Shown here in pieces: positions 9,668 through 20,842 of a stretch of 27,662 nt of DNA. Source of the DNA: a virus; the IMG/VR virus record IMGVR_UViG_3300031669_004405, positions 1 to 27,662 of that record. One strand, written 5' to 3'. Under the pieces are notes generated by a model that had not been told where the DNA came from, searched no databases, and saw nothing but the letters and a program-made list of their open reading frames with translations. A program made the position numbers and the translations under genes. Positions within the stretch are counted from its first letter, which is position 1, and the number at the start of each line of letters is the position of its first letter.

Positions 9668-10383
9668 ACTCACAACCTCAAAAAAGTGTGGAGTTTGACC
9701 ACTTAATTGTCACGAGAGGAAATTTAAATTGGGTAGGTGGTGGATTTAGTCCTGCTCACAGCGAAAGAAGAATTCATTTAATGAATCGAACAGTAAGACC
9801 ATCAATCGAACAACAAACAAACAAAAATTTTAAATTCATCAGCCTCTGGAATGAAAAACCAACACATGCTGGAATTGATGGTGAAATAATGGAAGTCATG
9901 AAATCTAAATTTATTTTGAATAAAACATTTACAAAAACACCTGTAATTCATAATGCGGAAATTGTCGAAATTTGTAAAAAACACATTACAAAAAATTATG
10001 TGTTGGTGACTAAAGTGGATAATGATGATTGTTTGGGTATGAATTTCGTTGATGTACTTCAAAAAAACGTTGACATCATAAACTACCCTTATTATTATGA
10101 TATTCTTGCGTTTAGAACATATTATATGATGACAGGAGTAATGGAAATTTGTAAATTACCATATACCAGTATGTTTCTTTCGGTATTGGAAAAAAGTAGT
10201 GATTTTGTTTGTTACCCATATAATTATAAACACACGCAAATCAACAGTGTGCTCAGTGGAAAACATATACGGGAATTAGACGCATTATTTACACAACATT
10301 TAGATAATTCAGTAGCGGGTGCTTACGGTGCGCCAACAAGATTTAATTTAAAACATTATAGTCCTAAATTAACACAACAATGA
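9628..10383 (+). CDS. Putative rhamnosyltransferase-type glycosyltransferase
   Basis: This 251-residue protein resembles the bacterial Rhamno_transf group. HLIVTRGNLNWVGGG (25-39) is the opening strand. RTVRPSIEQQTNKNFKFISLWNEKPTH (54-80) matches the family's 'lPSI..Qt..nF.w....d' line. The metal-site block VLVTKVDNDDCLGMNF lies at 126-140, with D131-N-D-D134. YPYYYDILAFRTYY and YPYNYKHTQINSV are later core pieces. The first 12 residues (MINQGTTYRINL) duplicate the start of the GT9-like gene at 1939, although the two proteins then belong to different folds. That makes the peptide a transferable module, not a family trait. The sugar is not determinable from sequence. Confidence 0.65.
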   Translation: MINQGTTYRINLGNSQPQKSVEFDHLIVTRGNLNWVGGGFSPAHSERRIHLMNRTVRPSIEQQTNKNFKFISLWNEKPTHAGIDGEIMEVMKSKFILNKTFTKTPVIHNAEIVEICKKHITKNYVLVTKVDNDDCLGMNFVDVLQKNVDIINYPYYYDILAFRTYYMMTGVMEICKLPYTSMFLSVLEKSSDFVCYPYNYKHTQINSVLSGKHIRELDALFTQHLDNSVAGAYGAPTRFNLKHYSPKLTQQ

Positions 10384-11210
10384 AGAAAATAATCAATTTC
10401 ACACCAACGGGCATAATGCCAACAAAGGAGAATTCAAATGCACCATTACAACCCAATGAAATAATTGAGGATGTACATCAGGCATTTGAATTAGGTATAA
10501 CATTAACTCATATACATGCAAGAGATAGTAATGATTCAAACACATATAAAACCGAGGTATTTGGTAAAATATTTGATGGGATTAGAAAACATTGCCCCGA
10601 TTTGGTGATTTGTGCTTCTTTATCTGGAAGACTGTTCCCTGAGTTCGAGAAAAGGTCAGAAGTTTTGGAATTATATCCCGATATGGGTTCATTAACAATG
10701 TCGTCAATCAACTTCCCCAAATCGGCATCAATGAACGCACCAGATATGATGATAAATTTGATTGAAAAAATGGATAATTTTGGTATTACCCCAGAGATTG
10801 AATGTTTTGATTCTGGTATGTTGAATTATGCCAATTATTTATTGAGAAAGGGAATCATTAAAAGACCAGCATACATCAATGTGATTTTCGGTAACTTATT
10901 TAATGCACAGGCAGATGTTGCATCGATATCATCGGTGATTAATAATCTTCCCGATGACGTGTTTACCTGTTTTGGTGGTATTGGGAAAGAGCAATTGAAG
11001 ATGACTATCATGGGACTTCTATATGTTGATGGCATTAGAATTGGTTTAGAAGATAATTTTTATTACAACGATAAAGAAAAAACAACAAACATCGAATTAT
11101 TAAAGAGAATTTATAGGGTTATGGATGAACTTGGTCACACAGTATTTAATCACACAGAATTTAAAAATCTTGGATATGGGAACACAAAAATTGGCAATAT
11201 TGGGGGTTAG
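10380..11210 (+). CDS. DUF849 / BKACE-type beta-keto acid cleavage enzyme homologue
   Basis: A 276-residue TIM-barrel protein recognisable as a member of the BKACE (DUF849, Kce-like) family. Known members use Zn2+ to condense a beta-keto acid with acetyl-CoA and cleave it. Visible motifs: INFTPTGIMPTKENSNAPLQP (5-25); THIHARD at 43-49, whose H44 and H46 fit the two Zn-binding histidines; LTMSSINFP (105-113); PEIECFDSGML (138-148); FGNLFNAQAD (170-179); and GIRIGLEDNFYYN (218-230), with R220 and E224-D225 where the family has its arginine, third zinc ligand and catalytic aspartate. Length and residues suggest an active enzyme. Its substrate here is unknown; the context suggests a keto-sugar or acyl precursor. 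The start overlaps the previous stop (ATGA). Confidence 0.85.
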   Translation: MKKIINFTPTGIMPTKENSNAPLQPNEIIEDVHQAFELGITLTHIHARDSNDSNTYKTEVFGKIFDGIRKHCPDLVICASLSGRLFPEFEKRSEVLELYPDMGSLTMSSINFPKSASMNAPDMMINLIEKMDNFGITPEIECFDSGMLNYANYLLRKGIIKRPAYINVIFGNLFNAQADVASISSVINNLPDDVFTCFGGIGKEQLKMTIMGLLYVDGIRIGLEDNFYYNDKEKTTNIELLKRIYRVMDELGHTVFNHTEFKNLGYGNTKIGNIGG

Positions 11211-16346: not shown

Positions 16347-17114
16347 ATGGCAAATGAAAAGAAATCGAATCTTTCTGAAGAATATCTAAGAAAGTTCAGA
16401 CATCGTTCGGGATACGTAATCAATGAATCCCCAAAATATCGTCCATTAGTGACTGATAATGAGGAATTTGATGAAATTCCTGTACTTGAGGTAGGTGACC
16501 AAGAAGATGCTCCGAAACCACAAGGTTTAGTGCGTCCAGCACCAAGTAATGACGTACCACAAGGTGCTGAAACACCAGTTCCAGCATTTGATGCTGAAGC
16601 AGGTGGTGAGCCACCAGAAGGTGAGATGACTGACCCAATGGGTGAACCAACGGCAGGTGAAGACCCACTGATTGGCGGTCCACAGGCTGCTGATGCTGGT
16701 ATGGGTATGCCACCACCAGAACCTGAAAACGAGGTCGATGACCTTCAAAACGAAATTATTAAACACAATATCGAAGCCATGAGAAGTATTCACGACCAAT
16801 TAGAAGGTTTGAATTCAACCATTCAGGGACTGAATCAGAAAATGGATGTATTGGGTGCTGAAGTTGAAGAAGTTCGTGAACCAACTGACTCGGAAAAACT
16901 CATGAATAAAACCGATGTGAGTTATCCTTATTATTTCAATCTAAATGATTTGTGGTCAGATAACTGGTTTGACCAAAAGCGTGTTGGTGCTGATGGCAAG
17001 ACTGATGATAGAGGTATGAAAGAATTACCTGATGGTACTTATGTTGCGGATTTCGATGATTTACCGCAGAAGTCTAAGATAGATGTGCAGAACAGTTTTA
17101 ACGACATGGTGTAA
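16347..17114 (+). CDS. Putative capsid-associated acidic protein with I-N-E processing-like site
   Basis: This 255-residue protein starts with SEEYLRKFRHRSGYVINESP. I25-N26-E27 lies at the same place as the L-N-E of the next three proteins and fits the T4 prohead protease rule (L/I)-x-E followed by a cut. Residues 45-130 are low-complexity, rich in P, G, E, D and A (PAPSNDVPQGAETPVPAF and so on), and look disordered. Residues 130-175 (DLQNEIIKHNIEAMRSIHDQLEGLNSTIQGLNQKMDVL) are a likely coiled coil. The C-terminal ~70 residues (YPYYFNLNDLWSDNWFDQKRVG) look folded. I do not recognise the family. A head-internal or decoration role is inferred from the N-terminal pattern and neighbours. Confidence 0.7.
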   Translation: MANEKKSNLSEEYLRKFRHRSGYVINESPKYRPLVTDNEEFDEIPVLEVGDQEDAPKPQGLVRPAPSNDVPQGAETPVPAFDAEAGGEPPEGEMTDPMGEPTAGEDPLIGGPQAADAGMGMPPPEPENEVDDLQNEIIKHNIEAMRSIHDQLEGLNSTIQGLNQKMDVLGAEVEEVREPTDSEKLMNKTDVSYPYYFNLNDLWSDNWFDQKRVGADGKTDDRGMKELPDGTYVADFDDLPQKSKIDVQNSFNDMV

Positions 17115-18031
17115 TGAAGAAATATGATAAACAAAGATTATTTGAAGTCATGGGAAGACTTGACCCAACGTTTAAACCCAGATTAAATGAGGGAGATGCC
17201 TTCAATGATGCTGGTGAGCCATTAATGACACATCAACAATTTAATGATTACAGTGAACCTGCTGAACCTGAGTACGATGATAATGAAAAACCACAATACC
17301 CAAAAGGTATGGGTGATTTTAATCATGTTGATTGGCAAATGGTACATGAACAACTGGTTATAAATACCGAATTACTTAGAGCAAATAAAACAAGTGACGG
17401 TAATTTAATGGCTGCAAATGTTGGTGATTTTACCGATTATGATGGTATGTTGAGTCCTGAAGAATTAAAACAACTCGAAGCATTTAATTTGATTTGGATT
17501 GACGGTCATTTTCCAATGATTGATGACGAACAATATTTGGATTTCGAAACATTTAAAGCAAAGGCTGCTGAGATATGGGATAAAGATACTCCAAGTCAGA
17601 TACAACCAAATGATAGTGAAGCACCTTATTTAAGAGGTAGAGAACCAATGTCGGAAGAAGAATTTGGTGCTCAAGAGTTACCAATACAAAATGTTCCTTC
17701 TCAGATTGATGGACGTAGTAAAGTAAGTGCAAAGAATTTAATATATAAACACATTGAACCTTTAATGAAAGGTATTTTTAGTGATGAATCATGGGAAGGT
17801 GTTAGAAAAATATGGGATAAGTTTGGTGAATTGGGTCTTGATTGGGATTTTAGCCGTAATTCCGAATATTATGGTGGCATGCCACCACAAGGCAAAACTT
17901 GGTATTTCGAAATCAAGTTCATGGGAAATAACGACAGACCCCAAACATTATTTGGTACTTTAACAGCAGCAGGTGCTGGTAGCGTTGAAGACCCATTAGG
18001 TAGATACGATATAACAGTAGTATTGTCATAA
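17114..18031 (+). CDS. Putative capsid-targeted protein with N-terminal L-N-E peptide
   Basis: A 305-residue acidic protein. Residues 6-16 (KQRLFEVMGRL) and the L24-N25-E26-G27 site parallel those of the two following genes (KERLFEM / KERFLEM, then L-N-E). After a disordered stretch (27-70), the middle (75-150) has WQMVHEQLVINTELLRANK and FTDYDGMLSPEELKQLEAFNLIWIDGHFPMI. The C-terminal third holds AKNLIYKHIEPLMKGIFSDESWEGVRKIWDKFGELG, followed by a beta-rich end (KTWYFEIKFMGNNDRPQTLFGTL). No enzyme motif is visible. T4 internal head proteins carry a short N-terminal targeting peptide removed by gp21 protease, and this looks analogous. The gene overlaps the preceding stop by 1 nt (TAATG). Confidence 0.7.
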   Translation: MKKYDKQRLFEVMGRLDPTFKPRLNEGDAFNDAGEPLMTHQQFNDYSEPAEPEYDDNEKPQYPKGMGDFNHVDWQMVHEQLVINTELLRANKTSDGNLMAANVGDFTDYDGMLSPEELKQLEAFNLIWIDGHFPMIDDEQYLDFETFKAKAAEIWDKDTPSQIQPNDSEAPYLRGREPMSEEEFGAQELPIQNVPSQIDGRSKVSAKNLIYKHIEPLMKGIFSDESWEGVRKIWDKFGELGLDWDFSRNSEYYGGMPPQGKTWYFEIKFMGNNDRPQTLFGTLTAAGAGSVEDPLGRYDITVVLS

Positions 18032-18032
18032 C

Positions 18033-18473
18033 ATGAAAATATTTCACCCATATGGTTCAAAAGAAAGACTCTTTGAAATGGTGAATAGAGTTAATGGTCT
18101 CAATGAAGAACTTCTCCCAAAAGAGAAGAAAGAAGAGATTATTAATAAATTCGTCAAAGAAGTTTGTAAATATTTGGGTGTTAGTAGTAATAAGATAGAG
18201 ATATCATATGACCCAAAAGAAGCACAGGGAATGTCTTCTTTCGGTAAACACACCCCAAGTACGGGGATTATTAGAGTGGTTGCAGAGAATCGAAACCTTG
18301 CTGATGTTCTGAGAACACTGGCACACGAGTTGGTTCATCGCAAGCAAGAGAAAGAAGGTAAACTTTATGCTGGTGCTGGTGATGATGGTACTAACATTGA
18401 AAACGAAGCAAATGCTGAAGCAGCATTAATAATGAGAAGGTTTGGTAAAACCAATCCGATAATTTTTGAATAA
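18033..18473 (+). CDS. Small HExxH metallopeptidase-like protein with capsid-targeting-like N-terminus
   Basis: A 146-residue protein in two parts. Residues 8-25 (GSKERLFEMVNRVNGLNE) match the next gene's start (GSKERFLEMFQGVNK, then QLNE) and end in L23-N24-E25, a prohead-protease-type site. After a linker helix (LLPKEKKEEIINKFVKEVCKYLG), residues 80-130 look like a minimal zincin. RVVAENRNLADVLRTLAHELVHRKQEKEG contains H98-E99-L-V-H102, and ENEANAEAALIMRRFG gives E125 or E129 as candidate third zinc ligand, as in gluzincin-like folds. Cellular substrates cannot be inferred. If packaged it could be injected with the DNA or act in the virion. A non-catalytic HELVH by chance is less likely because the helix and downstream Glu also fit. 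Confidence 0.75.
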   Translation: MKIFHPYGSKERLFEMVNRVNGLNEELLPKEKKEEIINKFVKEVCKYLGVSSNKIEISYDPKEAQGMSSFGKHTPSTGIIRVVAENRNLADVLRTLAHELVHRKQEKEGKLYAGAGDDGTNIENEANAEAALIMRRFGKTNPIIFE

Positions 18474-18484
18474 AAACAGAGGCT

Positions 18485-20842
18485 ATGAAAATAAAAACAC
18501 CAATTGGTAGTAAAGAAAGATTCCTTGAAATGTTTCAAGGCGTTAATAAAGTTCAACTAAACGAAGTCAATACAAATGTGGTGCAAACTGGCACACAATT
18601 GATTGAAAAAGCGTTTGAAGAACTAAAAAATAAACAAGCCAACATTCAACAAACTAATACACAAACAGTTGGTGATAATAATTTTGTTGAAATAATCAGT
18701 AATGACGAAGAAGGTAATGTAATTACATTCAAATTTAAAATTGATTCAGCAGAAGGTGACCAAGATGGTGTCTATAATGTGAGTAATGCGGTTCTATCTG
18801 AATTCAAAGTTCAATCACAAACACTTAATGTTGATATGCCCGAAAATATGGAGGCTGTGCAGGATTTTAATGCGAATCATGGTGGTGAAATCATGGATGT
18901 CGTTAGTGAATATGCTAATTTTGAAACCGAGACTGCAAGTCTTGGTGACGAGGTTTATGAGGAAGCCGTAAGATTCATTGATAAAGTACCATATAAAAAA
19001 GGCACGGAGCAAATGCAAACCAATAAAGCATATGCCGACCAGAAACCAACTAATCCTGATGTAAGAGTTAAATCTGATGAATTGGATAAATTTGTGAGTG
19101 AAATGGATGAATATGAACCAGAAGCCGAAGAAGACCCAATGGCGTTACCGCCCGAATTTACTGATGCCGACATACCTGATGACGATGATGATACAAAAGG
19201 TATCGACCCTTTTGACCAAGAAATAATGGATTATGAAAATGATGATGAACCTCTGGAACAAGTAAGTCCAGAGAAGGCTGCTGTTATTAATCAGGCTTAT
19301 GACAACCTTGTCAATGCTGGAAATCAAGCACCCACAACTAATGAAATAATGGCAGAAATCGATAGGTTACAGGGTAAAGTAAAACCAGTTGAAAAAACAA
19401 GAGCAATTCCTAAAGGTGCTGAAGCATTTTGGGAAAGCAAACATAAGGTTATTGATATGAATGCCGATACCGCAACCCAACATTTGTACAATAAAACGGT
19501 TTCACCAGAAATGAAGGAAAAAGTAATTAGATTTGCCGATGAAATTCTTGGTGAACGTCTTGGGGTTAGAAAATTTCAAATGCCCAGAGAAGAATATCTG
19601 GAAATGGTTAGGAAATTGGCAATTGAAATTTATCGACAAGATGCTATTGAAATGAATGAAACCGAAGAAAAGAAAATCAGTAAAGATTACCCAGACCAAA
19701 TGGGAAAGAAGTTCAAACCCAAAAATCAGATACCAAAGAAAAAGAAGAGACCACAATCTGTGGTAAAACTAAGTGAGGAATCTGAAATACCTCAAGAATA
19801 TTGGGGAAATCCTGAAGATGAGATAAATGAAGAAGATGTTGAAAAAGAAAAAGAAGAAGTTGGTGATATGATTGCTGGTGGTAAAGCCGATAAGAAAAAA
19901 CCACAGGATTTTGATAAAGAACAAATAAAGATGGGATTAAAAGTTGAGATGGAACACACTGATGACCCAATGGTTGCTATTGAAATTACTATGGACCACC
20001 TTACAGAATTTCCTGATTACTATACACGTCTTGATAAAATGGAAAAACAAGCTAAAGGTGATACCAAATCAGAAAGTGAAGAACCTCATGAAAGCGGTGC
20101 ATATCTTCAAGACGGCATGCCCGGTGAGAAAGACCGAAATGGACACCCAATACCATCAGTTGACCCAAATTTTACTATGATGAAGCCAATGGAAGGTATG
20201 GTAGATAATACTCCTGAAGAAGAAGAAATTACTGATGAATTACTTGGATATAAACCACATAATGTCGGTGATTATGCAAGTGAAGAATTTGACCATGTTC
20301 CAAGTGCTGATGCCGAAAAACAATATTGGGATAAAGAACATTACAAACAAGACCAAGAAAAAGAAGTTGGTGGAGAAGAGGAAAAAGAAGAAATTATTGA
20401 CGAAGAAGACGGAATGGAAGAATATACTGGTGAAGTTGGTGACCGTTACCAAGACGGTGAAGGTAACCAATTCACAGTAAGAGATATGGTAAAAGGCGGT
20501 GTGACGTTACAGGGACAAGGTGGTGATAAAGAAATTGCTACACGTGATATACAGTTTTTGAAAAAACTCAGTGAAGAGGTAAATAAACATATTGTTGTAT
20601 ATGATGGTACATCTGCTTATGTTGAAAATGAAAATAATATTCCAGAAGATGTTGAGGTAATAGGAAGATTTAATAATATCGATGATGCCCAAGCATTTGC
20701 TGATAAATATAATGATAGTGCATATGCCATTACCGAAGAACAAGTTAAAACGGCAAGACAGGCATTGAATAGGAGAGGAATTACTGATGGAATGACGAAA
20801 AAAGAAGCTGTACAACTTTTAATCAAGCACAATATCAAATAA
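18485..20842 (+). CDS. Large acidic putative virion protein with DUF5661-like segment
   Basis: A 785-residue, strongly acidic protein. The N-terminus (GSKERFLEMFQGVNK, then L25-N26-E27) is homologous to the start of the HELVH gene just upstream. Residues ~28-180 look folded (EIISNDEEGNVITFKFKI). Residues 200-260 are low-complexity acid (PDDDDDTK). Residues 320-395 include EEYLEMVRKLAIEIYRQDAI. About 407-424 is a basic patch with KPKNQIPKKKKRP. About 475-523 matches the DUF5661 pattern (DFDKEQIKMGLKVEMEH, then AIEITMDHLTEFPDYYTRLDKME). An acidic stretch and a C-terminal ~130 residues follow (TVRDMVKGGVTLQGQGG; DDAQAFADKYNDSAYAITEEQ). Such composition suggests an abundant internal or head-filling protein; the function is unknown. 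A hairpin terminator follows. Confidence 0.75.
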   Translation: MKIKTPIGSKERFLEMFQGVNKVQLNEVNTNVVQTGTQLIEKAFEELKNKQANIQQTNTQTVGDNNFVEIISNDEEGNVITFKFKIDSAEGDQDGVYNVSNAVLSEFKVQSQTLNVDMPENMEAVQDFNANHGGEIMDVVSEYANFETETASLGDEVYEEAVRFIDKVPYKKGTEQMQTNKAYADQKPTNPDVRVKSDELDKFVSEMDEYEPEAEEDPMALPPEFTDADIPDDDDDTKGIDPFDQEIMDYENDDEPLEQVSPEKAAVINQAYDNLVNAGNQAPTTNEIMAEIDRLQGKVKPVEKTRAIPKGAEAFWESKHKVIDMNADTATQHLYNKTVSPEMKEKVIRFADEILGERLGVRKFQMPREEYLEMVRKLAIEIYRQDAIEMNETEEKKISKDYPDQMGKKFKPKNQIPKKKKRPQSVVKLSEESEIPQEYWGNPEDEINEEDVEKEKEEVGDMIAGGKADKKKPQDFDKEQIKMGLKVEMEHTDDPMVAIEITMDHLTEFPDYYTRLDKMEKQAKGDTKSESEEPHESGAYLQDGMPGEKDRNGHPIPSVDPNFTMMKPMEGMVDNTPEEEEITDELLGYKPHNVGDYASEEFDHVPSADAEKQYWDKEHYKQDQEKEVGGEEEKEEIIDEEDGMEEYTGEVGDRYQDGEGNQFTVRDMVKGGVTLQGQGGDKEIATRDIQFLKKLSEEVNKHIVVYDGTSAYVENENNIPEDVEVIGRFNNIDDAQAFADKYNDSAYAITEEQVKTARQALNRRGITDGMTKKEAVQLLIKHNIK

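Follow-up and report, generated by a model that had tools for sequence, protein, structure and literature searches.

We identify a short N-terminal tag shared by three, and plausibly four, consecutive genes in the window, the whole 27,662-nucleotide stretch analyzed here, which is a 27.7 kb fragment from a virus record. The tag follows the pattern K-x-R-L-F-E-(V/M)-M...(L/I)-N-E over ~25 residues. Comparisons with related phages make it probable that this N-terminus is a capsid targeting sequence specific to the lineage and serving a T4-type head. A sequence-only reading had described the four products as likely co-packaged head proteins with a shared signal. Our analysis largely supports this description for 17114, 18033, and 18485 and supports it more weakly for 16347, where it is plausible, with packaging and cleavage as the steps that we infer.

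We propose that the amphipathic helix K-x-R-L-F-E-(V/M)-M docks onto some part of the prohead core, and that this binding would build whatever lies behind the helix into the prohead. A gp21-like S77 protease could then cut after (L/I)-N-E, as at the end of the gp23 propeptide. The cut would remove the tag and free the cargo inside the head, from which it would probably exit with the DNA at infection.

The N-terminal tag and its conservation

The genes and their landmarks, in window coordinates, are as follows.

16347..17114, plus strand: gene 16347, 255 residues, acidic and proline-rich, possible fourth tagged protein (18 relatives aligned)
16347..16427, plus strand: candidate tag of 16347 (residues 1-27), INE at 16419-16427, divergent and of uncertain membership
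17114..18031, plus strand: gene 17114, 305 residues, comprising tag, module A (~54-180), and module B (~196-305)
17114..17191, plus strand: class I tag of 17114 (residues 1-26), KQRLFEV at 17129-17149, LNE at 17183-17191
17648..17659, plus strand: MSEE (residues 179-182) at the module A/B joint of 17114, possible internal cleavage site
18033..18473, plus strand: gene 18033, 146 residues, zincin-type metallopeptidase-like cargo
18033..18107, plus strand: class II tag of 18033 (residues 1-25), KERLFEM at 18060-18080, LNE at 18099-18107
18324..18338, plus strand: HELVH, predicted zinc site of 18033, with a conserved ENEAN downstream at 18399-18413
18485..20842, plus strand: gene 18485, 785 residues, acidic, with a DUF5661 domain at residues 477-521
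18485..18565, plus strand: class II tag of 18485 (residues 1-27), KERFLEM at 18512-18532, LNE at 18557-18565

The motif positions first reported for these proteins are correct: INE at residues 25-27 of 16347, and LNE at 24-26 of 17114, 23-25 of 18033, and 25-27 of 18485. The KxR(L/F)(F/L)E(V/M) block likewise stands in three of the four, as KQRLFEV (6-12, 17114), KERLFEM (10-16, 18033), and KERFLEM (10-16, 18485), and is not found in 16347. The 34 called genes of the window (8,824 residues) contain 13 instances of (L/I)NE. The chance of it starting in one 3-residue slot in four consecutive genes is ~9e-11, or ~1.4e-7 once any run of four genes and any slot at residues 10-60 are allowed. The description of the proteins as otherwise unrelated also holds, with no mutual match between their mature parts in BLAST and profile searches. 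Pairwise similarity exceeds all 1000 shuffles for the tags of 17114 and 18033 and for those of 18033 and 18485; for 17114 and 18485 the pairwise similarity alone is not significant (0.115, shuffle test), and by the same test the 16347 N-terminus shows no significant similarity to any of the three other tags. Genome-wide, (L/I)xE at residues 15-35 is only slightly enriched because few proteins per genome carry the tag.

Relatives were collected as 80 IMG/VR loci found through UvsX, and seven longer contigs were then examined. In these and the window (eight contigs, 424,730 residues), K.R(L/F)(L/F)E(M/V) has 17 matches, all at residues 5-15. Scanning IMG/VR for the coding pattern, wherever in a gene it might lie, returned at least 119 stretches, with 90 matches in the 80 listed loci. 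Among the matches listed, 79 of 90 start at residues 4-13 and have a tag-like continuation; the remaining matches listed, for example those in one helicase family, look like chance. Comparison of N-termini across these contigs and the scan bears out the earlier expectation of a shared signal, as the tag recurs and is N-terminal and modular.

The two ends of the tag occur together. Among the matches listed, 70 unique N-terminal ones were picked on the helix block alone; (L/I)NE follows the block by at most 18 residues in 55 of these (background 2.1%) and (L/I/V/M)xE is present in 67 (background 26.6%), leaving three without it at the expected place. Some tags carry IKE, LKE, or VNE in place of LNE. 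Two classes can be distinguished, class I reading KxRLFEVMxRLDKTFKPKLNE and class II GSKxR(L/F)(F/L)EMMxxVNKxxLNE. Invariant tag residues are encoded by varying synonymous codons, to about the same extent as in the rest of these genes; it is therefore the peptide, not the DNA, that is conserved, and a conserved nucleotide element is not supported. Homogenization of tags within genomes was also not seen, identity being 0.57 within and 0.58 between contigs.

Beyond this group, tblastn of 17114 and of a class II tag against 50,697 phage records gave no match, and no description of the tag was found in the literature searched. A class I tag matched only Lak megaphages, at a tblastn E of about 3, which is too weak to use. 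The site concerned, in Prevotella phage Lak-B9 (L172:3001-3087), has the N-terminus MDKIQKKRLYESIMKSISKTVKGKLNE, which resembles the tag and is the sole such site in that genome.

Membership of 16347 is less secure. In its family (18 relatives) E27 is invariant and the site is conserved as (I/V/L)(N/S/G)E, several relatives read KxKLFEE, and the gene remains beside tagged genes in relatives, all of which makes it a plausible fourth tagged protein. That 16347 lies outside the tagged set and has its INE at 25-27 by coincidence is a serious contender, to which we give somewhat less than an even chance. This possibility draws on the lack of significant pairwise similarity to the tags, on an hhalign profile-profile probability of 8.7 against the tag, and on an N-terminus about as conserved as the remainder of the sequence.

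Head genes in relatives and the probable fate of the tag

The tagged genes of the window adjoin replication and recombination genes, away from the head block, and the fragment ends before any head gene. Profile matches identify a UvsX-like recombinase and a 5'-3' exonuclease. The region upstream is an extended series of genes for sugar and nucleotide-sugar functions; among its glycosyltransferases, methyltransferases, and nucleotide-sugar enzymes, 10380-11210 encodes a beta-keto acid cleavage enzyme (BKACE, E 4e-63). A Bacteroidota host, as in the earlier attribution, is likely by relatedness, because the best cultured relative by UvsX is a Flavobacterium phage and distant zincin homologues sit in Bacteroidota MAG contigs. 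Kinship with the published bS21 phages of Bacteroidetes was rejected, Ribosomal_S21 not having been found in the seven contigs searched.

One relative, G018, keeps the window gene order at ~74-92 kb (16347-, 18033-, 18485-, and 20920-type genes, then UvsX, the exonuclease, and the 26066 type). It is without a 17114-type gene at this locus; elsewhere on this contig, at 22-27 kb, it encodes gp23 and a gp21-type protease. Since the window is a fragment without head genes, its protease is presumed from syntenic relatives of this kind. The gp21-like protease that the sequence-only reading proposed to look for is present among syntenic and tagged relatives: a gp21-type S77 protease scores above cut-off in G001, G011, G013, and G018, and of 16 other long tagged contigs it does so in 11; gp23 occurs in all four of the named contigs and in 12 of those 16. 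The five long contigs in which gp21 is unmatched may be incomplete. Neither a gp21-type protease nor gp23 was found in 14 control genomes. The protease of relatives matches Peptidase S77 (PF03420, 58 bits, over the curated cut-off; phrog_207, E 8e-34) and the T4 gp21 structure 5jbl (E 5e-9). In G013 (302637-304544) the gp21 gene is split by a ~400-residue insert that matches an intein profile, beside a conserved EADHPD; the same split arrangement, with ORFs of 598-651 residues, is seen in G022, G023, G025, G026, G028, and G033.

The site itself also links tag and head. In all 13 gp23 precursors examined, M(I/L)NE closes the propeptide, before S; its last three residues are the tripeptide at the end of the tag, and homology to mature T4 gp23 starts ~11 residues further on. 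Near residue 32, an (I/L/V)(N/T/K)E tripeptide is found in most gp21 homologues. At G019:2750-3373 and G013:103600-103989, small proteins with another body begin like the gp23 propeptide (RW(R/E)K(L/I)GLLEG...) and may represent a second head-targeting route.

These observations bear on whether the tag is cut. It could instead be a permanent, uncleaved docking peptide for a shared partner (core, portal, tail, or chaperone), with LNE only ending the binding motif, and the helix block is indeed conserved as strongly as LNE. We consider this improbable. Uncleaved docking sits poorly with a tag tripeptide identical to the gp23 propeptide end and with a site at which E is fixed and the neighboring residues vary. 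In the zincin family of 18033 (28 sequences), E25, G8, K10, and L13 are invariant in the tag, and insertions between helix and LxE are tolerated, yet LxE stays at the border with the fold. The linker is also modeled as disordered: the 18033 model has a helix at 9-21, pLDDT below 50 at the linker (20-26), and a fold that is modeled with confidence from near residue 30 onward.

Less probable again, and in our estimate quite remote, is that the tag serves a process outside the head, such as intracellular addressing to a phage-made compartment or signaling for host turnover. The placement of the tagged genes beside replication and recombination genes would fit such a role, but the T4 ip genes too lie away from the head block, at what we take to be its position. 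A non-head process would also leave the gp21-type site and the co-occurrence of gp21 and gp23 unexplained.

Presumed cargo behind the tag

Among the matches listed, the mature parts behind the tag fall into 29 BLAST clusters, of which ~26 are credible; one large cluster fuses several families through low-complexity sequence, and small clusters may be remotely homologous. Cargo includes a zincin, GP88, and a DUF5661 protein. The 18033 product looks like a zincin-type metallopeptidase, with activity predicted from sequence and model. H98, E99, H102, and E123 are invariant in the 28 zincins, which gives HExxH and a conserved downstream Glu, and the profile search matches the phrog_87 metallo-protease (E 4e-4). 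In fold searches of the PDB the best hit is PprI/IrrE-like and weak (E 9e-3), with nothing at E 0.001; against predicted models of phage IrrE-like proteins the fold matches at E 4e-10.

Modules are also exchanged behind the tag. While 17114 consists of tag, module A, and module B, relatives carry tag and B (L003) or tag and A (G017, L021, L067). The MSEE of 17114 lies at most 1 residue from where the tag LNE stands in the L003 protein, which has tag and module B only; as an internal cleavage site it is a weak candidate because M is not L/I. The structure model of 17114 is of low confidence overall (mean pLDDT 56). The linkers of 18485 contain further (L/I/V/M)(N/S/T)E tripeptides, at a family rate 1.8x background. 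In L181, L242, L258, and G019:49525-50649, a 16347-type protein is fused to module B of 17114. The joint of these fusions carries (I/V/L)xE tripeptides, and by sequence the fusions look like a polyprotein that would be cut.

Common ancestry, in which the tagged genes would be duplicated copies of one gene with diverged C-terminal parts and the N-terminus a conserved domain without targeting role, is compatible with the BLAST clusters in so far as these allow remote homology, but is very unlikely given bodies that differ in domains (zincin, GP88, DUF5661), zincin homologues without the tag in L292 and L293, and the occurrence of the same module behind the tag or fused to another protein.

Implications and comparison with known targeting signals

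T4-type targeting is itself already known; what we regard as new is the length of this probable head-targeting tag, its lineage-specific character, and the unusual breadth of its cargo. If this reading is true, it provides a sequence rule that predicts packaged, and probably injected, proteins in a large group of uncultured phages, and loading of a T4-type head can also rely on a targeting peptide that is unrelated in sequence. More tentatively, at just under an even chance, we suggest that one interchangeable tag acts as a general cargo-loading code. Under such a code many unrelated proteins, among them a zinc peptidase and multi-module proteins with internal cuts, would be loaded into the head and injected, cargo would evolve by module swaps, and other Bacteroidota phages would have codes of their own. 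Among the internal proteins of T4 is one described as inhibiting a restriction enzyme of the host (PMC3012670, PMC9026906), and tagged proteins would therefore form a candidate list for host takeover or counter-defense, with the conserved zincin first.

Tags of other sequence occur in other phages. On the Bacteroidetes MAG contig L292 (12073-20317), tags such as MKxxKRFTQF(V/I)(N/T)E, MKYIKLFEE, or MKLLKFSQYITE open about nine small genes; these short tags are close in shape to the T4 signal and are probably another tag code. Flavobacterium phage immuto carries the N-terminal tags LSEQFKRMQFLAGIITE and MKKSQLRQIIKEAL; in its records (L168-L170) two genes begin MKKQILSEQF(K/R)RMQ(F/K)LAGIITE, before S, and others MKKSxLxxxIKE. 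Like the tag of the window lineage, MKxxKRFTQF(V/I)(N/T)E of L292 and LSEQFKRMQFLAGIITE of immuto stand on several small proteins per phage and end in (I/V/L)xE, but their sequences differ from the K-x-R-L-F-E tag. The gp23 of immuto reads VSE in place of the (I/L)NE of the window lineage, and the tags and the second position of the site may therefore change together.

Processing of packaged proteins is also described in more distant phages. In phiKZ and SPN3US, the prohead protease removes N-terminal parts of packaged head proteins by cutting behind a short motif whose last residue is Glu (PMC9026906), and the N-terminal part of P1 DarA is removed by Pro (PMC12810830). Unlike the present tag, these propeptides are not described, in the accounts drawn on here, as one short sequence common to many cargo families.

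The closest parallel is with the internal proteins of T4, described as having targeting propeptides of 10-19 residues that gp21 cuts after L/I-x-E (PMC9026906). In T4, Asp in place of the Glu of this site prevents processing while targeting persists (PMC9026906). Local alignments of the tag with T4 IP propeptides are not significant (best of 12 shuffle tests, 0.024), and we therefore liken the tag to these signals by function and not as a demonstrated homologue. Both are short N-terminal propeptides on otherwise unrelated small proteins and end in (L/I)xE, and in both the genes lie outside the head block. Unlike the T4 signals, the tag is 25-27 residues long rather than 10-19 and, among the matches listed, stands before ~26 cargo families compared with three in T4.
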